From Rosistilla oblonga (GTDB lineage: Bacteria > Planctomycetota > Planctomycetia > Pirellulales > Pirellulaceae), in the NCBI RefSeq assembly GCF_007751715.1, contig NZ_CP036292.1, positions 7,137,339-7,201,338 on the forward strand: a DNA stretch of 64,000 nucleotides, given 5' to 3'. Numbering within the stretch: position 1 is the stretch's first letter; each line of letters starts with the position of its first letter. The position numbers and the translations under genes are program-made. Shown in pieces: positions 17,212-44,499 of this stretch. Below the pieces are notes generated by a model. It did no database searches. It saw nothing but the letters and a program-made list of their open reading frames with translations, and was not told the origin of the DNA.

Positions 17212-18321
17212 ATGAAAAACGCTTTTTTGCACCGTCTGAACCTCGATCCGCATCGCTCGACTATCCGCTCCACAGCCGCCCTGAGAAAGGCATCGTCGAG
17301 TGGACGCGTCCTTTCCGGTGCGCTGTTGCTGTGCTTGGCCCCGCTGACGATCGCTCAGGAAATTGAAACTCCCCAAGTGATCCCAACCCCATCGGTCCAG
17401 CTGCCGCCGAAGCCTGTCGACTCGACCTTGCTGAACGATTTGCAGCCTGCCAAGAAGCCTCGGCTGGGGTTGGTCGTGGAGGATTTGACGCCTCAGTTGG
17501 CCAAACATCTGCGCACCGACCGAGGTGTCTACGTGGCGAGTGTCGAACAGGATGGCCCCGCGGATGTGGCGGGTGTCCGCTCGGGCGACGTCATCGTTCG
17601 CGTCGGCGAAACCGAGGTCGCGTCGATCACCGACTTGATGGCTGCGGTGGCCAAGATCGATGGCGAAACGATCTCGTTGACGCTCGAAGGCGAAAAGGGG
17701 CGTCGGACCGCGGAAGTAAAGCCGGTGATGGTCGCCGAAGAGCCGATCGAACTGATGGACTTGGACGAATTCGAGGACTCCGCACCGGGCGATCGCGATC
17801 CGCTGATCACCGGCGATCTGATCCGTCAATTGATGAATGAATTTGGCCAAAGTCTCGACGGGCGGACGCTCCGCGATCTCGGCGGGTTGGCTGATCAACT
17901 GCTGAACGATAACCTCGGCCAGAATGAACCATTGATGGACCGCCAGTTGAAGATCACGATCGATCGGCGTGGCGACGATCCCGCGGAGATCTTTGTCGAA
18001 CTCGATGGTGAACAATATAAGACCGATGCCAAGCACCTCGACCAACTGCCGCAAGAGTTGCGGGCAACGATCGCGGAACTGGTCGGCGAACCGCGAACAG
18101 GCAAGAGCTTCCGTTTCGGCGGCATCCACATCGACCTCGATGGCCAACGACCGCGCAGCATCGATCCTCCGTCGTTGAAACAGCCGAAAGCTCCGCGAGG
18201 CTTCGAGCCACTAGACGAAGAAAACGCCGTGCCGTCGCAGATCGACCAGTTGCGCCGCGAACTTAACGAATTGCGACGCAAGCTCGATCGCATCCAACCC
18301 AACCCAAGTGATTTCGATTGA
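17212..18321 (+). CDS. Exported PDZ-domain protein
   Basis: This 369-residue protein has a long N-terminal signal or anchor segment (hydrophobic core VLSGALLLCLAPLTIAQ). A single PDZ domain (about 82-170) contains the carboxylate-loop-like segment PRLGLVVEDL, GPADVAGVRSGDVIVRVG and a final strand ISLTLEGEKG. There is no HtrA-type protease domain, so it is probably a periplasmic scaffold or peptide-binding protein. The last 30 residues form a charged short coiled coil (LRRELNELRRKLDRI). The start was set at 17212 because of GGAG 8 nt upstream and the signal peptide; the frame is open back to 17125. Its TGA overlaps the TTG start of the next gene, suggesting coupled translation. Confidence 0.8.
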   Translation: MKNAFLHRLNLDPHRSTIRSTAALRKASSSGRVLSGALLLCLAPLTIAQEIETPQVIPTPSVQLPPKPVDSTLLNDLQPAKKPRLGLVVEDLTPQLAKHLRTDRGVYVASVEQDGPADVAGVRSGDVIVRVGETEVASITDLMAAVAKIDGETISLTLEGEKGRRTAEVKPVMVAEEPIELMDLDEFEDSAPGDRDPLITGDLIRQLMNEFGQSLDGRTLRDLGGLADQLLNDNLGQNEPLMDRQLKITIDRRGDDPAEIFVELDGEQYKTDAKHLDQLPQELRATIAELVGEPRTGKSFRFGGIHIDLDGQRPRSIDPPSLKQPKAPRGFEPLDEENAVPSQIDQLRRELNELRRKLDRIQPNPSDFD

Positions 18322-19397
18322 ACGATTCTGCTCTACTAACGGAAACTCCCCACCTTCCGCCACTCTCCCTCGGTCCCGTCGAGATCGGTTTTCCGGTCGT
18401 CCAAGCGGCTCTCTCGGGATACAGCGACTGGCCGATGCGCGTGATCGCGCGTCGCGCCGGGGCATCGTACACGTTGTGCGAAGTCATGCTCGACCAGTTC
18501 TTATTAGCCGTTAAGCAACGCAATAAGACGCGGCACTTCCTGCACATCAGCGATGAAGAGCATCCGGTCGGCGGCCAGTTGATGGGAGCCGAACCGGAGC
18601 AGTTTGCCGCCGGAGCGCTGCGGTTGGTCGAAGCTGGCTTCGACGTGATCGATATCAACTTTGGGTGTCCCGTCAAGAAGGTGCTAGGTCGCTGCCGCGG
18701 CGGCTTTCATCTGTCGCAACCCGAGGTGGCGCTGGAGATCGTTCGCAGGACGCGCGATATCGTCCCCGACCCGATCCCCGTCACCGTCAAGATGCGGCGC
18801 GGTATCGACGACAGCGATCAGAGTCGCGATAACTTCTTCACGATCATCGATGGTGCGTTTGACGCCGGTGTCGCCGCGGTCACAGTGCACGGCCGGACGG
18901 TGGAGCAGCGTTATAAGGGCCCCAGTCGCTGGAGCTTCCTAAAAGAGGTTAAGCAGCACGTGGGCGATCGCACGATTCTCGGCAGCGGCGATCTGTTTAC
19001 CGCGGACGATTGCCTGCGGATGATGCGTGAAACGGGGATCGACGGCGTCACGGTCGCTCGCGGTGCGATCGGTAATCCGTGGATCTTTGCTCAGGCAAGA
19101 GCCTTGGCGCAAGGGCTCGAACTGCCAGCGCCGCCAACCGTCCTGGAGCAGCGTGCGGTAATGGAATCGCATTACGACCTGATGCAGCAAATGTATGGCG
19201 ATCGAGCGCCGATGCTGATGCGCAAGTTTGCAATAAAGTATTCCGCCAGCCACCCCGAATTCGACGCACTGAAAGTCGCCTTCTCGCGACTCAAGTCGGC
19301 TGAGGAATTTGTCGCGGTGCTCGATCAATATTATCAACAGGATCGACCCGGCCAATATCCTCCCTCGACCGTCCACGCGACGCAGCAGGAATGTTAA
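18318..19397 (+). CDS. tRNA-dihydrouridine synthase
   Basis: This 359-residue flavoenzyme of the Dus family reduces uridines in the tRNA D-loop using FMN and NAD(P)H. Visible motifs are the N-terminal barrel strand VVQAALSGYSDWPMR, the FMN/active-site segment DINFGCPVKKV with the catalytic Cys117, the substrate and flavin segment VTVKMRRGID, VTVHGRT, and GSGDLFTADD with VTVARGAIGNPWIF at the end of the barrel. The start is TTG at 18318, which overlaps the TGA of the PDZ gene by 4 bp (TTGA). After the active-site Cys the sequence reads GRCRGG rather than the usual GxGAALL, a modest deviation. Which Dus subfamily it belongs to was not decided. Confidence 0.93.
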   Translation: MNDSALLTETPHLPPLSLGPVEIGFPVVQAALSGYSDWPMRVIARRAGASYTLCEVMLDQFLLAVKQRNKTRHFLHISDEEHPVGGQLMGAEPEQFAAGALRLVEAGFDVIDINFGCPVKKVLGRCRGGFHLSQPEVALEIVRRTRDIVPDPIPVTVKMRRGIDDSDQSRDNFFTIIDGAFDAGVAAVTVHGRTVEQRYKGPSRWSFLKEVKQHVGDRTILGSGDLFTADDCLRMMRETGIDGVTVARGAIGNPWIFAQARALAQGLELPAPPTVLEQRAVMESHYDLMQQMYGDRAPMLMRKFAIKYSASHPEFDALKVAFSRLKSAEEFVAVLDQYYQQDRPGQYPPSTVHATQQEC

Positions 19398-19418
19398 GCA
19401 GGTCGCTTGTGTTTTTTC

Positions 19419-19485
19419 GTTTAACCGCGAGCCCATCGGGCCGCGCGGCCCTGAAAAACGCGGGGCGATGCCCGCGCGGTTAAAC
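19419..19485. repeat. 67-bp palindromic repeat, family A copy 1
   Basis: The outer arms GTTTAACCGCG (19419-19429) and CGCGGTTAAAC (19475-19485) are perfect inverse complements and enclose the 14-bp palindrome GGGCCGCGCGGCCC. A second copy of the same length is at 44433-44499 and a degenerate one at 41448-41616. Similarity to copy 2 extends about 20 bp to each side (TTTTTTCG on the left; TAGAAAA and CTTGCTGCTT on the right, after the insertion described next). It lies just after the dus stop codon. Confidence 0.85.
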
Positions 19486-19634
19486 TCAATACCGTTCAAC
19501 GAAGCAGCCTCGGACTGTCGCAAGAATTAGCGGCGGTATGTAGTGGACGAGGTTACGAGTCCCTGCGATCTGGGCTGATGCATGCAAAAGGACTCGTAGC
19601 CTCGTCCACTACCGTTCGTTGAACGATATTGATT
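19486..19634. mobile_element. 149-bp MITE-like insertion inside family A repeat
   Basis: The segment is bounded by 18-bp inverted repeats, TCAATACCGTTCAACGAA (19486-19503) and its near-complement at 19615-19632 (17 of 18 matching). It contains a second long hairpin with 23-bp arms at 19540-19562 and 19590-19612 (22 of 23 matching; core GTAGTGGACGAGG). It is flanked by exact direct repeats GCGGTTAAAC at 19476-19485 and 19635-19644. The copy at 44433-44499 has the uninterrupted sequence GCGGTTAAACTAGAAAA, i.e. the empty site. It has no coding capacity, so transposition would need a transposase supplied from elsewhere. Confidence 0.75.
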
Positions 19635-19725
19635 GCGGTTAAACTAGAAAACTCCATGCTTGCTGCTTCGTCTCACTCCGGCGACCGATCACTTCAACTC
19701 ACCTCGCGACAGAAGGTTCCAGACG

Positions 19726-20209: not shown

Positions 20210-22867
20210 ATGACAACACCGATGATGCGACAATACGAAGAGGCGAAACAGGCGTGCGGCGACGCGATGCTGCTGTTTCGCATGGGCGATTTCTACGAGC
20301 TGTTTGCCGAGGATGCCAAGCAGGCGGCCAAGGTCCTGGGGCTGACTTTGACCAGCCGCGACAAGGATTCGGCCAACCCCACGGCGATGGCTGGATTCCC
20401 CTACCACCAGCTGGATGCCTACCTGCGGAAACTGATCTCCGCCGGCTTCCGCGCCGCGGTCTGCGAACAGGTCGAAGACCCAAAAGAAGCCAAGGGCTTG
20501 GTCCGCCGCGAGGTCACCCGCGTCGTCTCCGCCGGGACCCTGACCGACGACCAACTGCTGGACCCACGCGAAGCGAACTACTTGGTCGCCGTCTACAAGC
20601 CGCCAGCGGAGTCGAAGCGGAAAGCTGCCGCCGGTGCTCCCGAAGTCGTCGGCATCGCCTGGGCCGAGCTCTCCAGCGGTCGCTTCGAAGCCGGCTTGTT
20701 CCCCGCCGAACGCTTGGAGGACGAACTGGCTCGCATCGGTCCAGCCGAAGTCTTGATCCGCGAAGACGACGTCCGCACCTCGTTGGATTCGACAGCCACC
20801 TGGTCGGTGACCGATCGCCCGGCCTGGACCTTCGCCTTCGATGAATCGATGCAGCTACTGTGTCGCCAGTTTGGCGTCCGCAGTCTCGAGGGCTTCGGCT
20901 TTAACGACGAACACCGCCCCGCGATCCAAGCCGCCGGTGCGGTGTTGGCCTATCTGTCGGAAACGCAACGAAGTGGACTGGACCACTTCGATTCCTTGAT
21001 CGCTCACCACAACAGCCCCTCGGTCCAGATCGATGCCGCCACGCGCCGCAGCCTCGAGATCACGCGGACCTTGCGCTCCGGATCGCGAACCGGTTCGCTG
21101 TTGGATGTGATCGACCAAACTTTGACTCCGATGGGTGCCCGCCAATTGGGCGCCTGGATCGCGGCACCGCTGATCGACATCGAAGCGATCGGGCGGCGGC
21201 TCGACGCTGTCGAAGAGTTCCGGCAAGGGGAACCGCTTCGCGAAAACATCCGCTCCACCCTCAAAGGCGTCTACGATCTGGCGCGATTGCTGGGGCGGAT
21301 CGCCACCGGGCGCACCAATCCTCGCGACCTGCAATACGTCGGCAAAACGCTCGCCATGCTGCCGCCGCTGAAAGCGAAATTGACAGGCCGCAAAAGTGAA
21401 CTGCTGCAATCGCTCGAACAGAACCTGCACCTCTGCCCCGAGCTGCGGTCGCGTCTGGAAGCCGCCTTGGCCGACGATTGTCCGATGTCGACAAAAGATG
21501 GCGGCTTCATCCGCGAAGGCTTTGATCCCGATCTCGACGCGCTGCGGGAACTGGCCAAGGGAGGCAAGCGTTGGATCGCTACCTACCAAGCTGAACAGAT
21601 GGAGAAGACCGGCATCCAGAACCTGAAGGTCGGGTTTAACAAGGTGTTTGGGTACTACTTGGAAGTCTCCAACGCCCACCGCGACAAGGTTCCCGAGACG
21701 TTCATCCGCAAGCAGACACTGAAAAATGCGGAGCGGTTTATCACACCGGAACTGAAGGAATACGAAGAGAAGGTGCTGGCCGCCGACGACCAGGCCCAGA
21801 TCCGCGAATTGAATCTGTTCGACCAATTGCGAGCCGATGTGCATCAGCACTTGCAGATCTTGCAAGTTGTTTCGGCAGCGATCGCCGATCTCGACGTGCT
21901 GGCTTCGCTGGCCGAACTGGCGGCGAAGCGGAACTATGTTCGCCCCAAGTTGACCGACGAACCGGTGATGGATGTCGAAGAGGGGCGGCACCCGGTGTTG
22001 GACGCCACGTTGCCGCAGGGTGAATTTGTCCCCAACGATATCAAGTCGTCGCCCGAAGATGGCATGGTGCTGTTGATCACCGGACCGAACATGGCGGGTA
22101 AGAGTACGTACATCCGGCAGGTCGCGCTGCTGACGCTGATGGCTCAAGTCGGTTCGTTTGTGCCGGCCAAGTGTGCGACGATCGGTATCGCCGACCGGAT
22201 CTTCGCTCGCGTTGGTGCCAGCGATGAACTCAGCCGCGGGCAGAGTACGTTTATGGTCGAGATGGTCGAAACGGCTCGGATTCTGAACACCGCCACGCCG
22301 CGCAGCCTGGTGATCCTCGACGAGATCGGCCGCGGCACCAGCACCTACGACGGCCTCTCCCTGGCCTGGGCGATCACCGAACACCTGCACGATCAGATCG
22401 GTTGCCGAACCCTTTTCGCCACCCACTATCACGAACTGACTCAGTTGTCCGATATGCTGCCCGGCGTCGAGAATCTGAACGTCTCGGTTCGCGAATGGGG
22501 CGATAAAGTTGTCTTCCTGCATCGCATCGTTCGCGGCGGTGCAGACAAGAGTTACGGAATTCACGTCGCCCGTTTGGCTGGCGTTCCGCAATCGGTGAAC
22601 GAACGAGCCAAAGACGTTTTGGCTCAGTTGGAATCCGATCACCGCGACGCTTTTGATCGCCCGACGATCGCTCCGCCGGACGGCCGCAAGAGTGGCAGTG
22701 CGATGCAAATGACGCTGTTTGGTTACGTCGATCATCCGCTGGTCGATGAGCTTCGCAATCTGCAGATCGATGCGATGACACCGATCGATGCGCTGCAGAT
22801 GCTGCAGCAGTGGCAGCAGAAAATTCGGGATGGCGAAGACACCCCCGAGCTCTCGCGCAGCAAGTAG
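20210..22867 (+). CDS. mutS: DNA mismatch repair protein MutS
   Basis: This 885-residue MutS recognises mismatches and small loops as a dimer and recruits MutL. The mismatch-binding Phe-x-Glu motif is present in FRMGDFYELF (Phe28, Glu30). The core and clamp domains follow, with the conserved segment GYYLEVSNAH. The ATPase domain shows Walker A GPNMAGKST (from about 625), the STFMVEM segment, Walker B VILDEIGRGTSTYDG (about 701) and ATHYHEL. The length is slightly above the E. coli protein. It belongs to the MutS1 type because the N-terminal mismatch domain is intact. AGG lies 8 nt before the ATG. No mutL is in the window. Confidence 0.98.
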   Translation: MTTPMMRQYEEAKQACGDAMLLFRMGDFYELFAEDAKQAAKVLGLTLTSRDKDSANPTAMAGFPYHQLDAYLRKLISAGFRAAVCEQVEDPKEAKGLVRREVTRVVSAGTLTDDQLLDPREANYLVAVYKPPAESKRKAAAGAPEVVGIAWAELSSGRFEAGLFPAERLEDELARIGPAEVLIREDDVRTSLDSTATWSVTDRPAWTFAFDESMQLLCRQFGVRSLEGFGFNDEHRPAIQAAGAVLAYLSETQRSGLDHFDSLIAHHNSPSVQIDAATRRSLEITRTLRSGSRTGSLLDVIDQTLTPMGARQLGAWIAAPLIDIEAIGRRLDAVEEFRQGEPLRENIRSTLKGVYDLARLLGRIATGRTNPRDLQYVGKTLAMLPPLKAKLTGRKSELLQSLEQNLHLCPELRSRLEAALADDCPMSTKDGGFIREGFDPDLDALRELAKGGKRWIATYQAEQMEKTGIQNLKVGFNKVFGYYLEVSNAHRDKVPETFIRKQTLKNAERFITPELKEYEEKVLAADDQAQIRELNLFDQLRADVHQHLQILQVVSAAIADLDVLASLAELAAKRNYVRPKLTDEPVMDVEEGRHPVLDATLPQGEFVPNDIKSSPEDGMVLLITGPNMAGKSTYIRQVALLTLMAQVGSFVPAKCATIGIADRIFARVGASDELSRGQSTFMVEMVETARILNTATPRSLVILDEIGRGTSTYDGLSLAWAITEHLHDQIGCRTLFATHYHELTQLSDMLPGVENLNVSVREWGDKVVFLHRIVRGGADKSYGIHVARLAGVPQSVNERAKDVLAQLESDHRDAFDRPTIAPPDGRKSGSAMQMTLFGYVDHPLVDELRNLQIDAMTPIDALQMLQQWQQKIRDGEDTPELSRSK

Positions 22868-28174: not shown

Positions 28175-29092
28175 GCACTGTTTATTAAAGCAGTTTGAGC
28201 ACTCGCCGCATGGCGGCGAGTTGAACGAAAGCAAGGTACGAACAGGCAAGTTTATCGTATCGCGTCGCCACTCGGCGAGATTCTTTTAGCCAGCCGATCA
28301 GTCGTTCGATGATATTGCGGCGGCGGTAAGCTTCGCGATCAAAATTCGCATCCCGTGATTCGTTAGCCTTCGATCCGATGACCGGTTTGATCTGGCGGTC
28401 GCGGATGAACTGGCGAATCGCGTTACTGCTGTATCCCTTGTCTCCTGCGATCACTTCAGGACGACTGTCGTAGCGATGAAGACTTAGTTCACAGCTTGCG
28501 ATGAGATTCTCAAGTTCCGTCGACTCGTGGCGTTGACCGCCAGTCGCCGTGATTCCGAGCAACGTTCCCTCGCCATCGCATAGCACATGAATTTTCGTCG
28601 AGTATCCGCCTCGAGAACGTCCCAGAGCCACTAATTCATCGTTCTTTTCGCTCTGCGGAATCATACCCGAAGCGCTGCGGTGAGCCCGAATGACGCTACC
28701 GTCAACGCACCAAAGCGACCGGTCAATCTTCTCCAGTGCGTCCAGTCGCTTCAGTAGTGTTTGATAAATTCTGGCCCAGAGCCCTTCCTTGGTCCATCGT
28801 CGAAATCTGGCGTAGACCGTTTGCCATTTCCCCAGTTGCTCAGGTAGATCTCGCCAGGGGCTTCCAGTCTTCGTGATCCAGAGTATCCCATCTATTACCG
28901 TGCGATGGTTGCTCCACCGTCGTCCCGGCTTACCGGGGCGCTGCTTGGGCAGCAGATGACGGATTGCATTGAACTCCCGATCTGTGAGACGATGGCGTGG
29001 CATTTGGCTTCCTCCTTGGAGCACTTTGGTAGGTACTCCGGGAGGTTGCCGAATGCGTTTCTGTTTGACCAGATCAGTTTGTTAAACAGTGC
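28175..29092 (-). mobile_element. IS5-family insertion sequence, copy 1
   Basis: This is a 918-bp element with ends GCACTGTTTA and TAAACAGTGC, flanked by CTAG on both sides (28171-28174 and 29093-29096), consistent with a 4-bp CTAR-type target duplication of the IS5 group. Because CTAG is palindromic and adjoins G/C, the exact end is ambiguous by a base or two. Transposase and length match copy 2. Confidence 0.9.
28185..29003 (-). CDS. IS5-family transposase, copy 1
   Basis: This 272-residue DDE transposase has an N-terminal DUF4096-like segment (LTDREFNAIRHLLP and WRDLPEQLGKW). The catalytic triad lies in CVDGS, GDKGYSSNAIR and IIERLIGWLKESRR. The start ATG is preceded by AAGGAGG 6 nt upstream, so it is preferred over the GTG 7 codons earlier. 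The protein is identical to the copy at 30736-31554 in the opposite orientation. The frame is complete, so the element may be active. Confidence 0.93.
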   Translation of the reverse strand: MPRHRLTDREFNAIRHLLPKQRPGKPGRRWSNHRTVIDGILWITKTGSPWRDLPEQLGKWQTVYARFRRWTKEGLWARIYQTLLKRLDALEKIDRSLWCVDGSVIRAHRSASGMIPQSEKNDELVALGRSRGGYSTKIHVLCDGEGTLLGITATGGQRHESTELENLIASCELSLHRYDSRPEVIAGDKGYSSNAIRQFIRDRQIKPVIGSKANESRDANFDREAYRRRNIIERLIGWLKESRRVATRYDKLACSYLAFVQLAAMRRVLKLL

Positions 29093-29095
29093 CTA

Positions 29096-30643
29096 GCACG
29101 AAGCGCAAGTTTTGATGTTGCGCCGATGGATGCTTTGATCAGGCGAGGCACCGGTATTCCTGCGATAAAAGGTCAGTGTAGCGTTTCCTCAGTGTGCGGA
29201 GTCCGTGGTTGGTTTTTAGCCGTCGCAGGTGCCACTGGTGCTCGCGATAGCGAATGCCTAACAACAACGCCTCGCGGACGGTGTAGCTGCGAGCGTGCTT
29301 CCAGCATTTGCGCTGCCGATCGTCGATTCGGCGATCGGCCAGCTTGCGGCGACGAGTCCATTCCAGATAGCAGAACGTGATCAAGACGATCCCCATCCAG
29401 CTCTCGACCGCATCGAAATCTTTGAAGCTGTACTGGTTCATTCCCAGCGTGCTCTTGAGTTCTTTGAAGAACAACTCGATCTGCCAACGTAGACTGTACA
29501 GCTCACACACCTGCCGAGCCGACAAGTGCTTTGCATTGGTCATCAACAACTTCGTCCCTTCACGTTGAATCTTTTTGCCAATCGGCTTACTCGAGGAAAA
29601 GACGAGCATGACCATGCCCACATTGTGGACCTCGCTTCTCTCGCTGTGGACGTGATACGTCCGAGTTGACTTCGTCCCGTCGCGGCGGCGTGCCGTTCGA
29701 TGGCAGGAGGCTCGTCGCTGAGCAGCGTAAGGCCCCGCACCGATCGAAAGACGAATGGTTTGGAAACGTGATGCAGGAAGTTGTTCGATTCGCAAACTCA
29801 CACGAGGTCGCTTGCCGTGCTTCTTTGCAGAGAAGACGCGATTGGTGTTGACCGGAACGATCCAAAAATAGCCTCGCTCCCGGCAAGCCGCACGCACGCA
29901 TTTGGCGTCAAATGCGGTGTCTCCGAGCACAATCAGTTCGGTGCCGGCGGGTACTTGCGCGTCGCAAATCAACTGCGCCGCAAGCTGCGCCTGCGTCCGA
30001 TGTTTGATCTTGTGGGCCTTCGCATAAGGCTTGGTGTAGTACGGCAGCCACATCGGTACTCGCAGTCCATCGGGCGTCAGCAGCAATGCGAACACGAAAC
30101 AGTGGCAACTCTTTCGTTGATACTTGTACTTTGTGTAGCGGCGATTCTTGGCCGGTCGTCGCTTGGAGTTACCGGTGCTGAAGGTGTTTTCGACGGTCTG
30201 GCCGGCAGTGGCGACGAGTGTTGAATCGAGCAGTAGGAGATAGCGGCCGTTCCAATCCTGATCACGGAGCATCTTCAGTGTGATCGCCGTGAGCAAATCG
30301 GCGATCGCCTGCCGGTACCGTTTAAGGAAGCGTCGGGGTTGTGCCCGATGTCGCGGTTTTCCCTCGATGGCGGAGGCAGCAGACATGCACGAGTTTCGAC
30401 CGTGCCGCGTAAGAATAGCGATTAAGAATCGCAGCAGCATACTTCGAAAGTGAGCAGAAACCTGCGTGTTCGGCAGAAACGACTTGATTGCGGGGAGGGA
30501 ATCTTCCATGATTGCCATCGGTGAGCTCCTGGGCTTTGTTTGTGTGGTAACTCACAAACTCAGGATGTCTCACCTCTTTCTGCAATACCAATTCTCGCTA
30601 GCAACCCCATCAACGGCGCAACATCAAAACTTGCGCTTCGTGC
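29096..30643 (-). mobile_element. IS4-family insertion sequence with 30-bp perfect terminal repeats
   Basis: The ends 29096-29125 and 30614-30643 are perfect inverse complements over 30 bp, starting GCACGAAGCGCAAG and ending in GATGTTGCGCCG. If the flanking IS5 copies are removed, the inverse symmetry extends to 36 bp (adding ATACTA). No direct target duplication could be seen outside the ends. The outermost 14 bp are the same as the arm of a dispersed palindrome at 49460-49526. Confidence 0.85.
29139..30518 (-). CDS. IS4-family transposase
   Basis: This 459-residue DDE transposase shows the IS4 signature Y-x2-R-x3-E-x6-K in YSLRWQIELFFKELK. The two catalytic Asp lie in LLLLDSTLVAT and IVLGDTAFDAKC. 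AGGAG lies 8 nt before the ATG at 30518. The frame is intact. It occupies nearly the whole element between the terminal repeats. A basic, Arg-rich segment (QRRASCHRTARRRDG) sits between the second Asp and the YREK motif, in the usual insertion-domain position. Confidence 0.93.
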   Translation of the reverse strand: MAIMEDSLPAIKSFLPNTQVSAHFRSMLLRFLIAILTRHGRNSCMSAASAIEGKPRHRAQPRRFLKRYRQAIADLLTAITLKMLRDQDWNGRYLLLLDSTLVATAGQTVENTFSTGNSKRRPAKNRRYTKYKYQRKSCHCFVFALLLTPDGLRVPMWLPYYTKPYAKAHKIKHRTQAQLAAQLICDAQVPAGTELIVLGDTAFDAKCVRAACRERGYFWIVPVNTNRVFSAKKHGKRPRVSLRIEQLPASRFQTIRLSIGAGPYAAQRRASCHRTARRRDGTKSTRTYHVHSERSEVHNVGMVMLVFSSSKPIGKKIQREGTKLLMTNAKHLSARQVCELYSLRWQIELFFKELKSTLGMNQYSFKDFDAVESWMGIVLITFCYLEWTRRRKLADRRIDDRQRKCWKHARSYTVREALLLGIRYREHQWHLRRLKTNHGLRTLRKRYTDLLSQEYRCLA

Positions 30644-30646
30644 TAG

Positions 30647-31564
30647 GCACTGTTTAACAAACTGATCTGGTCAAACAGAAACGCATTCGGCAACCTCCCG
30701 GAGTACCTACCAAAGTGCTCCAAGGAGGAAGCCAAATGCCACGCCATCGTCTCACAGATCGGGAGTTCAATGCAATCCGTCATCTGCTGCCCAAGCAGCG
30801 CCCCGGTAAGCCGGGACGACGGTGGAGCAACCATCGCACGGTAATAGATGGGATACTCTGGATCACGAAGACTGGAAGCCCCTGGCGAGATCTACCTGAG
30901 CAACTGGGGAAATGGCAAACGGTCTACGCCAGATTTCGACGATGGACCAAGGAAGGGCTCTGGGCCAGAATTTATCAAACACTACTGAAGCGACTGGACG
31001 CACTGGAGAAGATTGACCGGTCGCTTTGGTGCGTTGACGGTAGCGTCATTCGGGCTCACCGCAGCGCTTCGGGTATGATTCCGCAGAGCGAAAAGAACGA
31101 TGAATTAGTGGCTCTGGGACGTTCTCGAGGCGGATACTCGACGAAAATTCATGTGCTATGCGATGGCGAGGGAACGTTGCTCGGAATCACGGCGACTGGC
31201 GGTCAACGCCACGAGTCGACGGAACTTGAGAATCTCATCGCAAGCTGTGAACTAAGTCTTCATCGCTACGACAGTCGTCCTGAAGTGATCGCAGGAGACA
31301 AGGGATACAGCAGTAACGCGATTCGCCAGTTCATCCGCGACCGCCAGATCAAACCGGTCATCGGATCGAAGGCTAACGAATCACGGGATGCGAATTTTGA
31401 TCGCGAAGCTTACCGCCGCCGCAATATCATCGAACGACTGATCGGCTGGCTAAAAGAATCTCGCCGAGTGGCGACGCGATACGATAAACTTGCCTGTTCG
31501 TACCTTGCTTTCGTTCAACTCGCCGCCATGCGGCGAGTGCTCAAACTGCTTTAATAAACAGTGC
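30647..31564 (+). mobile_element. IS5-family insertion sequence, copy 2
   Basis: This 918-bp element is in the opposite orientation to copy 1, with the same ends GCACTGTTTA and TAAACAGTGC and flanking CTAG at 30643-30646 and 31565-31568. Equal length and an identical transposase indicate very recent duplication. Confidence 0.9.
30736..31554 (+). CDS. IS5-family transposase, copy 2
   Basis: This 272-residue transposase is identical to the one encoded at 28185-29003. The ribosome site AAGGAGG at 30722-30729 fixes the ATG start at 30736. DDE residues lie in CVDGS, GDKGY and IIERLIGWLK. The frame ends 10 bp inside the right terminal repeat boundary. Confidence 0.93.
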   Translation: MPRHRLTDREFNAIRHLLPKQRPGKPGRRWSNHRTVIDGILWITKTGSPWRDLPEQLGKWQTVYARFRRWTKEGLWARIYQTLLKRLDALEKIDRSLWCVDGSVIRAHRSASGMIPQSEKNDELVALGRSRGGYSTKIHVLCDGEGTLLGITATGGQRHESTELENLIASCELSLHRYDSRPEVIAGDKGYSSNAIRQFIRDRQIKPVIGSKANESRDANFDREAYRRRNIIERLIGWLKESRRVATRYDKLACSYLAFVQLAAMRRVLKLL

Positions 31565-41447: not shown

Positions 41448-41616
41448 CGTTTAACCGCGTGCCCAACGGGCCGCGCGTCCAATCTCAGCAAACGCACTCG
41501 GCCTCGTCGTGGACGAGGCTACGAGTCCTTCACCCAATCCCTAAAGCTCGAAGGGACTCGTGACCTCGTCCACTACGATAGATGCGTGCGTGGGACGTTG
41601 CCGCCGCCGTTAAACG
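41448..41616. repeat. Degenerate dispersed repeat, family A/B copy 3
   Basis: The left arm CGTTTAACCGCG (41448-41459) and right arm CGCCGTTAAACG (41605-41616) match as inverse complements in 11 of 12 positions. Inside is a hairpin with 23-bp arms at 41506-41528 and 41554-41576 (20 of 23 matching), the same family as the hairpin at 19540-19612. The GGGCCGCGCG core is partly kept. It fills most of the 385-bp gap between two plus-strand genes; nothing else was recognised in the rest of that gap. Confidence 0.7.
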
Positions 41617-41801
41617 AGATTGCTAGCGTTAAACCGGCTGGCGGAAAACCACCGAAATCGCTGGAAAGACTTGATATCTGCAATTCGATGGCGGATAATC
41701 ACTCTTCCGACTGCCATTAAATGCCCTCCTTCAGCGGTCTCCTGCCCCTCGCCCCACCTTGAATGCAGTAGACCGCGTCACCTCGATTTGGATTTCGAGT
41801 C

Positions 41802-44432: not shown

Positions 44433-44499
44433 GTTTAACCGCGTGCCCATCGGGCCGCGCGGCCCTGAAAAACGCGGGGCGATGCCCACGCGGTTAAAC
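44433..44499. repeat. 67-bp palindromic repeat, family A copy 2 (empty site)
   Basis: The arms GTTTAACCGCGTG and CACGCGGTTAAAC (44433-44445, 44487-44499) are perfect inverse complements and enclose GGGCCGCGCGGCCC. Compared with copy 1, the twelfth pair is T-A instead of an A/G mismatch. The right flank continues TAGAAAA without interruption, showing the state before the insertion seen at 19486-19634. It lies between two genes of one functional cluster and could influence read-through. Confidence 0.85.

Follow-up and report, generated by a model that had tools for sequence, protein, structure and literature searches.

A 145-bp miniature element with IS4-subgroup-like ends carries a REP-like hairpin in Rosistilla oblonga

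How a short non-coding segment came to stand beside a palindromic intergenic repeat, and what kind of transposase would move it, is the question raised by a locus in a 64,000-nucleotide stretch of the Rosistilla oblonga genome (NCBI RefSeq assembly GCF_007751715.1, contig NZ_CP036292.1, positions 7,137,339 to 7,201,338 of the forward strand), hereafter called the window. A MITE-like insertion had been proposed here from the sequence, and the proposal is supported by dispersed copies, by duplications that vary from site to site and by empty and filled orthologues. The miniature element (MITE) lies between an ORF at 18318-19397, presumably a tRNA-dihydrouridine synthase from recognition of its sequence, and a small ORF upstream of ORF 20210-22867, which we take, likewise by recognition, to be MutS-like. 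The features of the locus, in window coordinates, are as follows.

19419..19485, plus strand: 67-bp GTTTAACCGC...GCGGTTAAAC palindromic intergenic repeat, the insertion target, with an unfilled paralogue at 44433-44499
19477..19486, plus strand: left 10-bp target duplication CGGTTAAACT, its boundary set by the orthologue in the congener G001
19487..19631, plus strand: miniature element (MITE), 145 bp, non-coding, placed by the sequence, further copies and comparison with congeners
19487..19504, plus strand: left terminal inverted repeat CAATACCGTTCAACGAAG
19540..19562, plus strand: left arm of the internal hairpin, GTAGTGGACGAGGTTACGAGTCC, REP-like, with a GTAG tag
19590..19612, minus strand: right arm of the internal hairpin
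19615..19631, minus strand: right terminal inverted repeat CAATATCGTTCAACGAA, one mismatch to the left one
19632..19635, plus strand: four additional bases, ATTG, which repeat the right terminus and were gained later; missing from the orthologous filled site of G001
19636..19645, plus strand: right 10-bp target duplication CGGTTAAACT
44433..44499, plus strand: unfilled paralogous 67-bp palindromic repeat

The original prediction gave the element as 149 bp at 19486-19634. The element is real, but the left edge was one base off and four extra bases (ATTG) had been included at the right end; the MITE starts with CAATACC and ends with ATATTG. The length of the target duplication (10 bp) and the position of the element between its two copies were correct, but the sequence had been read one base off and is CGGTTAAACT. 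The terminal inverted repeats, predicted at 18 bp, were refined to 17 bp, and 16 of 17 bases pair between CAATACCGTTCAACGAA and CAATATCGTTCAACGAA, within the 15 to 30 bp expected of MITE termini. The predicted 18-mer occurs within the window as two inverted copies with 0 and 1 mismatch when up to three mismatches are allowed, and two copies per window were obtained in 0 of 100 shuffles. The RNA fold of the element has a computed energy of -78.9 kcal/mol (z -9.8), and equal stability was reached in 0 of 200 shuffles. The element is spanned by no listed ORF of at least 100 aa and falls within the size range of non-coding MITEs (approximately 70 to 300 bp). A mechanically called minus-strand ORF (18939-19523) reaches into its leftmost 37 bp, and another ORF begins at 19629. 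The Rfam scan of the window returned only a tRNA.

The unfilled paralogue at 44433-44499 runs into TAGAAAA, as had been claimed, and is 97% identical to 19419-19485. Insertion sites were also compared between relatives, at one locus. The window locus is empty in the congener G002 and filled in G001 with clean ends, where a tandem pair of MITEs has CGGTTAAACT on both outer sides. The filled site in G001 reads TATTG directly followed by CGGTTAAACT, without the extra ATTG. This fixes the boundary of the element and indicates that ATTG is a later change at the window locus.

A DNA search of the R. oblonga genome (G000, 7.25 Mb), in which 40 of 85 candidates were scored, listed at least 63 matches. 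At least 29 copies, including the window copy (L001-L029), cover at least 113 of the 149 query bases, and 22 of them cover at least 134. The 28 copies other than the window copy, a lower bound with 40 of the 85 candidates scored, are 81 to 91% identical to it. The flanks differ among the 29 copies; neither outcome named as contradicting the original prediction, a lack of further copies or one flank common to all, was observed. Many of the remaining match rows are halves of split copies or self-matches of the hairpin. The 17-base terminus, at up to three mismatches, occurs 80 times in G000, compared with 10 times for the reversed control. For the congeners G001 and G002, searches with a related copy listed 41 and 33 matches, respectively, from 21 scored candidates per genome. 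A crude ORF call places 28 of the 29 elements in G000 outside ORFs; 14 of the 29 lie between convergent ORFs and 3 between divergent ORFs, and in 3 of those 14 one neighbor is an inserted IS. At one locus of G001 (L146, 3940500-3943000), MITE units stand in a row with a spacing of 167 bp.

Target duplications were scored by script at 47 loci from three congeneric genomes (G000, G001, and G002), which gave 31 elements with both termini within 60 to 160 bp. The flanking 10-mers match at 8 or more of 10 positions in 22 of these 31 copies, whereas shuffled pairings gave 5.8 such copies on average and never more than 13 in 2000 shuffles. The duplicated target is C G T T T A A C C G, with the consensus nGTTTAACnG, and T3, T5, and A6 are invariant in 22/22. 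There are 14 distinct targets among the 22 good duplications, and unusual sites, too, match between left and right (CGTTTACCAC, CGTTTAGGTA, and GGTTTAAAGG; the copies with unusual yet matching duplications are L007, L098, and L103), indicating that the 10-bp repeat arises by duplication and does not belong to the element. A good duplication is absent in 9 of the 31 copies. Three of these are apparent one-base boundary shifts (L009, L107, L136); the remaining six are the window copy, which has the additional 4 bp, the inner end of the tandem pair in G001, and four unexplained cases.

A transposase with matching ends, which the original prediction suggested looking for, was found in other genera, while none was found in G000. 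The element found in G167 is 1471 bp long, and its ends, CAATACCGTTCAATGAAG, agree with the MITE terminus at 17 of 18 bases. It duplicates CGTTTAACGA and encodes P0002, a protein of 459 aa that matches the profiles Nterm_IS4 (Pfam, 3.1e-15), DDE_Tnp_1 (Pfam, 1.9e-6), and NF033592 IS4 (NCBIfam, 2e-44). Full-length matches to P0002 of at least 37% identity numbered 11, and the elements of eight of these, one per genome and from six genera, were examined as transposase-bearing partners (helpers). The termini of all eight read CAATACyG, and all eight encode the YREK motif, Y(2)R(3)E(6)K. Their lengths are 1446 to 1476 bp, with one ORF of 434 to 477 aa in each; the helper at L259 has one internal stop. 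Their duplications match at 9 to 10 of 10 positions in six cases, at 7/10 in L263, and at 5/10 in L257, values that are favored by the joint score of termini and duplication with which the ends were picked. The nearest case to a pair in the same genome is G163, where the same 17-bp termini bound both of the MITEs that were read and a 76%-identical helper.

Table 1 of PMC2266710 gives the IS4 subgroup a size of 1400 to 1650 bp, ends of the form xAATR, and direct repeats of 10 to 13 bp. The eight helpers resemble this subgroup in size, in xAATR ends (8/8), in Y(2)R(3)E(6)K, in having one long ORF, and, for six of the eight, in 10-bp duplications that match at 9 to 10 positions. The WTW given for terminal positions 14-16 is found among them only in part, and the word MITE is absent from the main text of PMC2266710. 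The MITE and the G167 helper have only about 18 terminal bases in common, so that an internal deletion of that helper does not by itself account for the MITE.

Within the genus, no relative of P0002 reached an E value of 1e-10 in G000 or G001, and the one trace in G002 is a decayed fragment. Among 75 DDE_Tnp_1 matches, 30 were scanned (10 each in G000, G001, and G002), and 0 of these loci had the MITE ends as their own; the weakest rows of the 75, below the family cut-off, are mostly a Tn5-like IS. The long pairs of termini observed within the genus are all MITEs split by an IS or by its miniature. Two loci considered as helpers, L164 and L177, were rejected, as the MITE terminus is present there only because a transposase adjoins the MITE or sits within it. 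Two loci in G001 (L148, L151) hold an IS with ends CAATACTGTTCGGC, the first bases of which resemble the MITE terminus, and with a 9-bp duplication. The window itself contains three DDE_Tnp_1 transposase genes close together at about 28233-31506.

The segment is thus very probably a non-autonomous MITE of the IS4 subgroup, IS4 family, moved in trans by an IS4-subgroup transposase. From the sequence comparisons we infer both the mobilization in trans and the chemistry of the cut: the DDE transposase of an IS4-subgroup element, supplied in trans, would bind the CAATACCGTTCAAYGAAG termini, move the MITE, and join it to target DNA cut with a 10-bp stagger at nGTTTAACnG, which would produce the 10-bp duplication. 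A REP-like hairpin would ride as cargo. In G000 the helper appears to have been lost.

The hairpin with 23-bp arms noted in the original prediction was seen at 19540-19562 and 19590-19612, but it is not private to the element. The internal hairpin of the window MITE is a REP-like repeat that exists independently. Single arms (GTAGTGGACGAGG..., with the GTAG tag) occur 114 times in G000 at up to two mismatches. Of the 100 arms that were listed, 52 are separated from every listed MITE terminus by more than 250 bp; these 52 fall into 24 loci, at least one of which (L027) is a decayed MITE. The hairpin has the properties of a REP, being a GTAG-tagged palindrome, an inverted pair, and present in many copies. 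Two other genera (G012, G014) gave 10 and 37 element matches, largely over the hairpin, with no MITE terminus there. The window contains, at 41448-41635, a GTTTAAC palindrome unit that encloses the same hairpin (41509-41573) and has no MITE ends.

Hairpins of other MITE families were sought outside MITEs with seven arm motifs from six genomes, within the fetched stretches. The Aquisphaera arm motif had 5 of 22 matches away from a terminus, all in L230; for the other six motifs, every match in the fetched stretches was within 200 bp of a terminus.

The independent occurrence of the hairpin bears on a second explanation, under which a RAYT (Y1) transposase moves the whole unit, flanking repeats included, as a repeat of the REP/REPIN type. 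The hairpin starts with GTAG and occurs outside the MITE, and GTAG tags mark REPs (PMC3733652). However, inverted termini bound the unit on the outside, and its duplication varies between copies. Y1 transposases are not known to create such duplications. Moreover, copies of 69 bp that lack the hairpin (L108, L138, L139, L141, L144) are still flanked by 10-bp duplications, and in G002 the duplications match at 9 to 10 of 10 positions in 3/3 of the hairpin-less copies measured. Of the Y1 transposase genes found in G000, 0 of 5 have the hairpin within 1.5 kb. We consider movement of the unit by a RAYT very unlikely. For an IS4-subgroup MITE, the 69-bp forms and their duplications suggest that the hairpin may be dispensable, a cargo that movement would not need. 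One Y1 transposase gene in G000 (L296, 3246379-3246717) is flanked by several copies of another palindromic unit.

The hairpin is itself a target. A 1543-bp IS with Tn5-type domains (NCBIfam IS4_3) and the ends CTGTTGATTACCCACAAGTC, the Tn5-like IS, enters the hairpin arm at one point, GAGGNNACGAG, in 17/17 copies in G000 (L112-L124, L031-L034). This sequence is present on both sides of the IS in 16 copies and on one side only in L121. Nine of the copies in G000 are in MITEs, and eight are in hairpins or tandem arms outside MITEs. In G002 (L143, L147, L287-L293), 7 of the 9 copies found are at the hairpin point. The duplication is 11 bp in most copies, longer than the 8 to 9 bp given for subgroup IS50 in Table 1 of PMC2266710. 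A 255-bp unit with ends like those of the Tn5-like IS is present at the same hairpin point inside MITEs in G001 (L135) and G002 (L140) and would presumably be derived from that IS. At both loci, one miniature element is nested within another.

As four MITE copies in G000 are split by the Tn5-like IS into the same two halves, the IS at first resembles a full-length parent that moves the MITE. It was rejected as the autonomous parent, a role to which we assign almost no probability: its ends (CTGTTGATTACCCACAAGTC) are others than those of the MITE, it makes its own 11-bp duplication (GAGGNNACGAG) of hairpin sequence, it is inserted in both orientations and in either hairpin arm, 8 of 17 copies in G000 are in hairpins outside the MITE, and two of nine copies in G002 are in neither MITE nor hairpin. 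These properties indicate that the Tn5-like IS invades the hairpin and is not the parent of the MITE.

The 67-bp GTTTAAC palindrome was matched in the 90-bp flanks of 15 of the 29 loci (16/58 flanks), compared with 0 of 116 random control stretches from the same loci, controls that were not limited to intergenic DNA. The target nGTTTAACnG stands at both ends of this abundant palindromic repeat, which would account for the position of about half of the copies at such repeats. The remaining 14 of 29 copies have no adjoining 67-bp repeat. The idea that a larger repeat block was duplicated to give the filled locus, without insertion, draws on the repetition of the 67-bp repeat in the genome and on tandem copies such as that of G001 at the window locus, but it is scarcely credible given copies in differing flanks with their own duplications, 14 of 29 of them away from any neighboring 67-bp repeat, and an orthologous locus that is empty in G002.

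The terminus extends beyond the genus. In the wider family, 43 of 241 genomes, belonging to 16 of 68 genera, contain it at up to one mismatch. The reversed control was positive in 13 of 241 genomes, at most once in each, and many of the 43 genomes have a single match, so that a signal clearly beyond chance is limited to the 12 genomes that have at least five matches. The exact 18-mer was found in 58 stretches of named genomes, 55 of which are from planctomycetes by title or taxonomy; the three others (Hymenobacter, Ahrensia, and a Rhodobacteraceae MAG) have a single terminus each. An inverted partner lies within 400 bp in 27 of the 58.

Other planctomycete MITEs have different hairpins within the same ends, among the 20 elements shown. 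The MITE of G058 (L252) has the same ends and the same kind of hairpin, with a different interior otherwise. In Aquisphaera insulae, elements of 285 bp with the same termini were observed at L180, L185, L195, L208, L212, and L230. The two of these that were folded, L208 and L230, have a different long hairpin, an arm of which is also present outside the element in L230. Tentatively, and with somewhat more doubt than confidence, we propose that an IS4-subgroup terminal shell may have spread through planctomycetes and repeatedly acquired the REP-like hairpins of its hosts. That a single terminal shell is combined with REP-like hairpins of different kinds is the more novel feature of the family; it is supported but not proven.

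A published description of this MITE family was not found among titles and abstract openings of the open-licence literature. MIC231 and other IS4-family cassettes are non-autonomous units that use IS4-family ends; MIC231 uses IS231 ends and carries genes, whereas the unit described here is a short hairpin-bearing MITE with IS4-subgroup-like ends. Some members of the IS4 subgroup show a spectacular apparent insertion specificity (PMC2266710). With regard to the cargo, long palindromes of A. variabilis contain GTAG-15 dimers, and the PVC superphylum also has GTAG repeats (PMC3733652). The internal hairpin resembles such GTAG REPs and REPINs in being a GTAG-tagged inverted pair that is often found outside the MITE (PMC3733652, PMC3116915). 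It differs from them in that no RAYT gene was found beside the hairpin in G000 and in that the hairpin is enclosed by the shell of an IS4-type MITE, which has target duplications. The Tn5-like IS, which enters one hairpin point in all its G000 copies, resembles ISRm22 of the IS4 family, for which 10/10 were in S. meliloti REPs (PMC1525189). ISRm22 is placed in subgroup IS4Sa (PMC2266710), so that subgroup and host are different, and the target of the Tn5-like IS is partly within MITEs.

These results tie an orphan MITE family to a transposase through its termini and its target sequence, and they supply an orthologous site that is empty in one congener and filled in another. If the proposed acquisition of host hairpins by a spreading terminal shell is true, intergenic palindromes gain a second dispersal route, by DDE transposases, and targeting would be layered, with the MITE entering a palindrome family and the Tn5-like IS and the 255-bp miniature entering the hairpin borne by the MITE. 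The nesting of these elements also explains mosaic repeats in these genomes. The findings suggest that the REP-like hairpins of planctomycetes may travel as cargo of DDE-type MITEs, besides being moved by RAYTs.
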